64,000 nt of DNA from Engraulis encrasicolus (taxonomy: Eukaryota; Chordata; Actinopteri; Clupeiformes; Engraulidae), in assembly GCF_034702125.1 (NCBI RefSeq), contig NC_085870.1:3391571-3455570 (forward strand), given 5' to 3'. The translations under genes were made by a program, and so were the position numbers. Below the pieces are notes generated by a model. It worked only from the letters and a program-made list of their open reading frames with translations, ran no database searches and was not told the DNA's origin. Positions 10,201 through 13,200 of this stretch are shown here, in pieces (positions within the stretch are counted from its first letter, which is position 1; each line of letters opens with the position of its first letter).

Positions 10201-13200
10201 TGGATCGCCGAATCGATCATTGTTGACACCACTAATTTCCAGACAGTTGAACTCAGCCAAGACAACTCGTCTATATAAAACTCAGACAGGCTTCCAGTCT
10301 TCTTTCAGCTCAACTGTGTTATCACCATGCAGAGGTGTGATGTTGATGTCAAACCAATATATTCTCACCTGTCATGCAGTTTATCTCTATTTCTGAGCTC
10401 CTCTCTCTCTCCCTCTCTCTCTCCCTCTGTGTGCATGTGTGTGTGTGTGTGTGTGTGTGTGTGTGTGTGTGTGTGTGTGTGTGTGTGTGTGTGTGTGTGT
10501 GTGTGTGTGTGTGTGTGTGTGTGTGTGTGTGTGTGTTTGTGTTTGTGTGTATGTCTGTGTGACTGTGATTTTTGGCACATATGCATGTCTGTGTGCGTGC
10601 ACTCGTGTGTGTGTCTGCACGTGTGTGTGTGTGTGTGTTCTCCGCTAGTCGTCCCGGCCTCAACGAAGCATCGCAGCCTGCGGGCGCTGTGGGAGGAGTG
10701 TTGCGGCCGCGAGGCGCCCTTCTGTTGCCCGGCCGACGCCTTCTCCAAGAGCCTCAGGAAGAGGTTCATCCACAAGGTCAAGGCCAAGCAGCCTGGCCAA
10801 TCAGACGCAGGTAACCCTCAAGGCCAAGCAGCCTGGCCAATCAGACGCAGGTAACCCTCAAGGCCAAGCAGCCCGGCCAATCAGACGCAGGTAACCCTCA
10901 AGGCAAAGCAGCCCGGCCAATCAGACACAGGTAACCCTCTAGGCCAATCAGACGCAGGTAACCCTCTAGGACAGTCAGACACAGGTAACCATCTAGGCCA
11001 GCGGTTCCCAAAATTTTCCCCCTGCGCACCCCCTTGTAGATTTCAATGTGGTTCGCGCATCCCCTAAGCAAATATTTTGCTGTGCTGAAGTATGAGTCAC
11101 TGCACATTATGCACAGTTGTTTTGGGGAATCCTATTTTCCAACAGTCTAGGAGTTAAACTACACTTCAGATGCACCATACAATTAAAGACTACTTCATGT
11201 TCATTAATGCTGGATAAAAACTCACATATCCACCATTGCTCTATTTAGCTCACGCACCCCCTTATGGCAGGCCGCGCACCCCCAGGGTTGCACGCACCCC
11301 AGTTTGGGAAACCCTGCCCTAGGCCAAGCAGCCCGGACAGTCAGACGCAGGTAACCCTCTAGGACAGTCAGACGCAGGTAACCCTCTAGGACAGTCAGAT
11401 GCAGGTAACCCTGTAAGACCATTTGATGTTTTCAAAAGCAGATATCAGGCTGGCACAACCACAGCAGTGAATAGCAAGAATTCACACCTAGATGACAGGA
11501 CACCTTTATTAATAACAATAAGAATAATTTCCAATAATGAAATGCACAAGTCCAAAAATGGCGCTTACGTCATTTTGCAACATGGAGGTGTGAATACTGA
11601 TGAGAAGAAAGACTCCAAGGCTAATTGACTTCCTGGTTGTCCCGTCCCGTCCGCAGTGTTTGCTAATTGAGTGTCTGGTTGTCCCGTCCGCAGTGTTTGC
11701 TAATTGAGTGTCTGGTTGTCCACTCCGCAGTGTTTGCTAATTGAGTGTCTGGTTGTCCATTCCGCAGTGTTTGCTAATTGACTTTCTGGTTGTCCACTCC
11801 CCAGTGTTTGCTAATTGAGTTTCTGGTTGTCCCGTCCCCTGTTTGCTAATTGAGTTTCTGGTTGTCCCGTCCCCTGTTTGCTAATTGAGTTTCTGGTTGT
11901 CCCGTCGGCAGTGTTTGCTAATTGAGTTTCTGGTTGTCCACTCCGCAGTGTTTGTGCAGCTGTTGCTGCAGATCCAGTCCTGCTGTAGGATGCTGCCCAC
12001 CGTCCTGTGCAGTGCAGACCGCGTCACCGTCTTCCAGTTCTTCTCTTACCTCAGCAGATGGGCCATCACAGACTTTGGAGAACACATCTCTCGCCTCTCA
12101 AAAGAAGGTACTACTGGGGGGTGCTGTGGTGCAGCGTGCTAAGCCCCCCCACATTTGGGCTTGCATGCCCACCCACGGGGACCCCGGTTCGAGTACGGCC
12201 GGGGTCATTTCCCGATCTTCCCCTGTCTCTCTGTCCCATTAGCTTCCTGTCACCATCTTCGACTGTCCTGTCAAATAAAGGCATAAAAGCCCCTAAAATA
12301 TATATATATATATATATATATATATATATATATATATATATATATATATATATATATATATATATATATATATATATATATAAAAGAAGGTACTGCAGTA
12401 CAGGGGGTTGCTGTGGCTCAGGTGACTAATGCCTCTTTTGCATGCACTGGCGTTTTTCTGGTAGGCCTGCTACAGCTCGACACAGCCCAACTCGGCCGCC
12501 ACTTTTTTCTTTTCGAATAGGCACAACACAGCTCAATCGTAAAGCAAAAGGTGGCAGCCGAGTCGGGTTGTGTCGAGCTGTAGACCTACCAGAAAACCGA
12601 CAGTCGAAAAGAGGTATAAGGCGCCTTGGCATATACCGGGGGCCAAGGTTCGAATCCTGCTAGAGGACCCCCCCACCCCCACCCATCTCTCTCCCACTGA
12701 TTTCCTGTAATCTTCTCTACTGTCCTGTCCAGAATGAAGGCATAACAAGCCCTAAAAACAAATGTGAAAACAACAAGATACTCCAAGCCCCTAAGGTAAT
12801 GGGGTCATCTACAATTAAATGAACTACTGAGCTGCTTTTTAAGAGGGCAATGAAAAAGCTAATTATCAATTTATAATGATAATCTCTGTTCTCTAATCAC
12901 AAGGGTTGAGCTCCGTAATGTTCTCTGATATATCCATAAAAATGTGAGTGGGAAACAGTTTATGAAGCGTATAATTCACTTGACCTGGTATGACTTTTCT
13001 TCAATTGCTGTGGTAGTCCACTGCAGTGCATCATCATCATCTCCATGTTATATTCTTATACATTTCTATTTCATTTTATTTACACATTAACCTTTTTTAT
13101 GGATATCTTATACACATTATCCTGTCACTGTAAATACACAAAAGAAGATTTATGATTGTCAAAGACAAATTTCCTGCGGACAAATAAATATAATCTTGAT

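Follow-up and report, generated by a model that had tools for sequence, protein, structure and literature searches.

A ripor3 intron in a teleost fish with separate minisatellites at its donor and acceptor borders: a probable double-ended mirage

Minisatellites that span exon-intron borders, called mirages, have been described in the amphioxus genes Adh3, the globins BflGb6 and BflGb9, troponin C and PGBD5. In the available text of these reports, the arrays vary in length and leave regular splicing undisturbed (PMC3087553, PMC3902484). In human coagulation factor VII (F7), intron 7 contains several 37-bp repeats of high similarity, of which the first carries the donor. According to the available part of that report, donor choice follows oriented scanning and only the most upstream donor is used in the normal state (PMC6627357).

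The ripor3 intron analyzed here resembles both systems. As in the amphioxus mirages, so far as the available text describes them, its repeat units span the exon-intron border, many units carry AG or GT signals, and either border can be involved. Each unit combines exon and intron sequence, and the signals are repeated, with nine donors on one side and seven AGs in nine acceptor units on the other. Unlike those mirages, this case comes from a teleost and not from a cephalochordate, has two independent arrays at both ends of one intron, is built of short units (27–40 bp), and contains a transposon-like insert inside one array. The likeness to F7 is that the true donor, as judged by the frame and the alignment, lies in the most upstream unit and similar donors follow downstream, whereas the gene and the sequence differ and an acceptor array is not mentioned for F7 in the available part of the report (PMC6627357). 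In the mainly open-access literature covered, partly as excerpts, no report was found of mirages in fish or of an intron with a mirage at each end, which is a weak negative. The minisatellite of human IFI6 (6-16), published by Turri et al. in 1995, is also said to supply multiple splice donor sites; it reportedly has a short unit and differs from the present case by having no acceptor array. A double-ended mirage in a vertebrate with near-complete acceptor modules thus appears to be new, although the kind itself is already known.

Introners are multi-copy families of mobile introns, near-identical at many loci. Such an origin was rejected here, as both arrays match this locus only and the inner insert alone is repeated. 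Neither the donor array nor the acceptor array was found at any second locus in a genome search that skipped simple and very common words.

The window, the whole analyzed stretch of 64,000 nucleotides, corresponds to C14:3391571-3455570 of the 1.43-Gb genome. The gene was identified as RIPOR3 (FAM65C), in agreement with the sequence-only reading, by homologous proteins and by exons of the PL48 (FAM65) domain, which lie upstream of the double-array intron on the same strand. The upstream exon at 10649–10810 (plus strand) is 162 nt, an in-frame length, and ends with KVKAKQPGQSDA plus G, based on translation, the alignment with fish RIPOR3 and tblastn. The downstream exon at 11949–12106 (plus strand), placed by the fish RIPOR3 alignment, is 158 nt and starts with (G)TG TTT GTG, which gives VFVQLLLQ. 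The flanking exons are matched by 14 RIPOR3-like proteins, and those with a species name are all from teleost fishes. The intron, as predicted to be spliced, extends from the first donor to the last acceptor (10811–11948, plus strand) and yields the junction KVKAKQPGQSDA-VFVQLLLQIQ. The junction KAKQPGQSDA-VFVQL aligns without gaps to 12 of the 14 homologs (e.g., KAKQPGQSEK-VFSQL); the exceptions are P0013, which has no upstream exon, and P0014, which diverges at the junction. At least four conserved coding blocks follow downstream of the intron. Not all middle exons could be located on C14, but part of the compared sequence is N, so that nothing follows from this about a pseudogene or lost exons.

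Other repeats are seen near ripor3 exons. TCA and TCTTCT microsatellites at 13299–13441 lie directly before the acceptor (13449) of the next downstream exon and apparently serve as its pyrimidine tract. A TG repeat of 134 bp (10428–10561) is located upstream of the acceptor of the exon preceding the double array. Outside the window, a CTCTC-type repeat of about 813 bp (C14:3377670-3378482, L026) enters the acceptor of a PL48 exon as a giant pyrimidine tract. Long open frames at 17029–18523 and 2724–3473 (minus strand) resemble LINE-type reverse transcriptases by eye.

The sequence-only reading had claimed that the donor and acceptor borders were amplified as separate minisatellites, and this is confirmed: two unrelated arrays lie at the ends of the intron. 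The donor array (plus strand) consists of two parts, based on Tandem Repeats Finder (TRF) and pattern listing. The first part (10778–10998) has 40-bp and then 27-bp units with donors at 10811, 10851, 10891, 10931, 10958 and 10985, and the second part (11317–11419) has donors at 11351, 11378 and 11405. All nine CAG/GTAACC donors (the slash is the border; positions are those of GT) are thus where that reading had placed them. TRF reported 10778–10951 (40 bp, 4.3 copies), 10915–11000 (27 bp, 3.2 copies) and 11335–11419 (27 bp, 3.1 copies). The unit consists of the last ~31 exon bases and nine intron bases. The spacing had been given as 40 bp (1 modulo 3), which holds for the first four units; afterwards it is 27 bp (0 modulo 3). 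Units 1 and 2 are identical over 40 bp, and the 9-nt donor core is unchanged in all nine donors, while variation is seen in six of the 15 remaining columns (P 0.037). Two structural ideas about this array were rejected. A strong hairpin that hides the donor has a z of −1.27, with 19 of 200 shuffles equally good, and for looping out of the intron by pairing between the two arrays, 43.5% of 200 unit shuffles were at least as strong as the tiled units.

The gap of 366 bp between the sixth and the seventh donors is due to a separate interspersed insert of 318 bp (10999–11316, plus strand) inside a donor unit. Based on repeat matches and flanks, it is a putative hAT-like non-autonomous element. It matches 39 other places at 77–91% identity, among the 40 that were scored of 2296 candidates. 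Its flanks, ATCTAGGC (10991–10998) and CCCTAGGC (11317–11324), are alike at six of eight positions. Other aligned copies have similar ends, and in four of seven of them, by eye, the 8-bp flanks are identical with a central TA. Flanks of this kind are seen with hAT elements, which have 8-bp target duplications, and the insert is presumably a hAT-type non-autonomous DNA transposon. The flanks ATCTAGGC and CCCTAGGC are near-copies of the donor unit's own CTCTAGGC, which indicates that the element was inserted into a donor array whose units had already multiplied. The array is therefore not fresh, though its first two units are still identical. The element is considered a passenger of the donor array and not the cause of the repeats.

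The acceptor array (11644–11954, plus strand; 37 bp, 8.5 copies by TRF and pattern listing) contains seven acceptors, CAGTGTTTG, whose AGs end at 11656, 11693, 11730, 11767, 11804, 11911 and 11948, the last being the productive one, as had been proposed. Each AG is followed by the six exon bases TGTTTG, so that the unit consists of 31 intron and six exon bases. The motif ccgcag, formerly assigned to every unit, is present at five of the seven acceptors, and the other two have ccccag (11804) and cggcag (11911). In total there are nine units of ~37 bp, and two of them (ending at 11839 and 11874) have no AG there. The sequence TTGCTAAT, a good likeness to the branch-point consensus, is seen 28 nt upstream of six of the seven AGs, and the first AG also has GCTAAT upstream. 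Between TTGCTAAT and the AG of the unit, only one other AG is present in most units, 6 nt after TTGCTAAT. Most acceptor units thus lack little of a complete 3' splice site.

At both borders, the authentic site is the exon-proximal one by the frame and the protein alignment. The claim that the outermost pair alone is productive is borne out, as 10811/11948 is the only one of the 63 donor-acceptor pairs that is open to 12106, and it joins the exons as in fish RIPOR3. The other 62 reach a stop before 12106. Read-through past the first donor meets TAA at 10852, and the first donor joined to each of the six upstream acceptors leads to TGA, both as claimed. The same reading had taken this poison arrangement as a sign of regulation. 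In 1000 trials in which the splice cores were kept and the spacers were shuffled, only the outermost pair was open in 686 (69%). The poison property thus needs no selection and is expected of most arrays laid out in this way, and its use as a sign of regulation is not supported.

These facts point to a double mirage at which probably only the exon-proximal sites are spliced. For the inner copies, the prediction is that they are tolerated as decoys and mostly silent, and they probably have arisen regardless of splicing. This reading is based on the sequence, and we regard it as likely. Minisatellites would arise anywhere in a repeat-rich genome, and whenever the edge of an exon falls by chance within one, the splice site would be copied too. 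Selection on the protein would keep the unit adjoining the exon, and the remaining units could drift freely. Under exon definition, splice sites are paired across a short exon; this would favor the outermost donor and acceptor, each of which lies closest to its exon. If an inner site were occasionally used, an early stop with exons downstream and probably nonsense-mediated decay (NMD) would follow, and such a leak may be a minor burden and not a control by design. Normal splicing of ripor3 is suggested by analogy, because the amphioxus mirages and F7 are reported to splice normally. The invariant donor cores count against tolerated decoys, being the opposite of the decay of harmful or idle decoys; recent copying explains them too.

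The same invariance is consistent with decoy splicing as a control, the possibility raised in the sequence-only reading, in which the inner sites would be used enough to send some ripor3 transcripts to NMD, with the array length setting the share. Besides the identical core of all nine donors, a branch-point-like site, pyrimidines and an AG come together at six of the seven acceptors, and 62 of the 63 pairs stop early. An early stop with exons downstream is a target of NMD, and with at least four conserved coding blocks following, the early stops here read as such targets. However, the same poison pattern arises in most of the shuffles, two acceptor units have no AG, and the reports, in their available text, describe normal splicing for the amphioxus mirages and exclusive use of the first donor for F7. 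A control of this kind is considered unlikely. Quite unlikely, too, is that the arrays are a heritable length dial, in which nine equal donors and seven near-complete acceptors compete with the productive pair, the share of poison transcripts depends on a length that differs from fish to fish, and many other borders of the genome have such a dial. If it were true, the genome would be a natural laboratory for spliceosome choice among equal sites. The choice of the spliceosome among equal neighbors is a long-standing question, mostly addressed with artificial constructs. The ripor3 intron is a natural case, with nine donors of the same core and seven near-equal acceptors, where every choice but one leaves a recognizable trace.

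Further border arrays are seen in ripor3 and its paralogs. A second donor array of ripor3 (44 bp, 5.0 copies; C14:3372901-3373119, which is 1664–1882 of L017) is located at the PL48 exon ending with SLE (Pfam PL48, 3.4e-21). It begins in the last exon bases, GCCTGGAG followed by GTACAG. The RIPOR paralog on C20 has an acceptor array (51 bp, 3.9 copies; C20:10629800-10629999, which is 3800–3999 of L034) at a PL48 exon (3.7e-9). This array is in frame with no stop through all four units, and each upstream acceptor would add 17 residues. In the paralog on C4, an array of 31 bp and 6.5 copies (C4:41223527-41223727, minus strand; L031) follows an exon-like open frame and has CTCAC/GTAAGT in most units. 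It is a candidate mirage only, since the exon has no family match. At the position of the C4 paralog homologous to the acceptor with the array in ripor3, only CA/GT-type repeats are seen.

The C20 array bears on the possibility that repeats holding AG and GT are a nursery, that is, raw material for alternative exons or for introns at new positions, a model proposed for the amphioxus globins in the available text (PMC3087553). All four C20 acceptors share a single open frame (units of 51 bp, 17 codons), which means that longer forms would be readable there. The units of the double-array intron, in contrast, are 40, 27 and 37 bp with stops, and none of the inner pairs is open, which makes this explanation very doubtful for the locus. 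An assembly artefact is highly improbable: short tandem repeats may be mis-assembled, but the donor units differ in an ordered way, a separate insert with near-matching flanks lies inside the array, the locus is within a 55.6-Mb contig, each array is found once in the genome, and similar arrays recur at other exons. It is scarcely credible that spare copies guard the intron against mutational loss of its splice sites, since the inner pairs, despite nine identical donor cores, give no readable protein and would not rescue a lost outer site.

Independent amplification of both borders of one intron had also been considered too unlikely by chance. Here, a minisatellite was defined as an array with a unit of 15–100 bp and three or more copies that is not simple. 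Eighteen such arrays, including those of the locus itself, cover 1.37% of 190 kb, and the coverage is 0.93% in the two paralog stretches alone. For one given intron, the chance that both ends are covered is ~0.0001–0.0002. With ~200,000 introns, a number taken from general knowledge, and selection assumed to be absent, ~17–38 such introns are expected. The double-array locus is therefore rare but not beyond chance genome-wide, and the earlier claim is not supported at that scale.

Kinase exons were used as a control. Of the 44 borders of 22 exons, none lies in a minisatellite that is not simple (upper 95% limit 6.6%); these exons come from 40 picked among 145 matches (under about 300 bp), the genes are a non-random sample, and the ends of the matches only approximate those of the exons. 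Where simple CA or CT repeats touch a border (L070, L079 and L083), they were not counted. One exon (L075) has an 11-bp repeat in what looks like a spurious match extension, and in another (L082) a 30-bp unit occurs twice close to a border, which it does not cross. In ripor3, three of about 33 borders, a rough number as several exon ends are approximate, have a minisatellite, against 0.45 expected (Poisson P 0.011), or 0.31 at the paralog coverage (P 0.004). Two of the three are the arrays of the double-array intron itself, and for the remaining one alone the probability of at least one is 0.35. An excess of border arrays within ripor3 is possible. Outside ripor3, there is no clear sign that borders either breed or repel minisatellites.

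A genome-wide survey with a pattern of three AGGTRAGT motifs in tandem gave 286 hits, compared with 199 for the reversed motif, which consists in part of simple TCCATTCA repeats and is an imperfect control. The excess could come from overlapping hits in a few arrays. When hits within 10 kb were merged by hand, 29 distinct forward and 26 reversed arrays were counted in the listed range from C1 to C9:15.9 Mb. Based on these numbers and the kinase borders, a strong enrichment of minisatellites at borders was rejected. Eighteen of the 29 arrays were chosen by eye for retrieval, and the other 11 looked mostly like transposon copies or low-complexity sequence. Ten of the 18 end an open, exon-like frame, and the other eight do not or are ambiguous. 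Four of these ten calls (L046/L062, L048, L053 and L057) are based on the open frame and reading by eye. For six of the 18 arrays, a match to a protein family or structure has E < 1e-3: DPYD (2.7e-24), XPR1 (1.1e-32, with a Pfam SPX score that is not significant), THAP (2.3e-14), CD225 (4.6e-9), HSCB_C (7.1e-8) and GH38 C-terminal (7.6e-4, below the curated cut-off of the family). A CTU1-like exon has a weak PDB match (0.009). NCBIfam gave nothing for two exons, and PDB gave nothing for two.

Mirages, known from amphioxus, thus occur in a fish genome, and this genome offers further border arrays for comparison, at donors and at acceptors, some in frame and some not. Repeated borders are also a warning for gene-prediction and RNA-mapping software.

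For two arrays, the donor array of ripor3 (rho 0.89) and that of GH38 (rho 0.86), the divergence of units tracks their distance from the exon. The trend is not clear in the other five of the seven arrays tested, including the ripor3 acceptor array, so that growth at the exon end was rejected as a general rule. The DPYD exon (C6:260901-261500, L044) ends with RVYELVGK followed by gtgagt, a composite array with seven AAGGTGAG sites contains repeats of this exon end, and the PDB match extends to residue 874. The XPR1 exon (C6:14512980-14513450, L059) ends with LLQNYQ followed by gtgagt and carries a 37-bp tandem-donor array.
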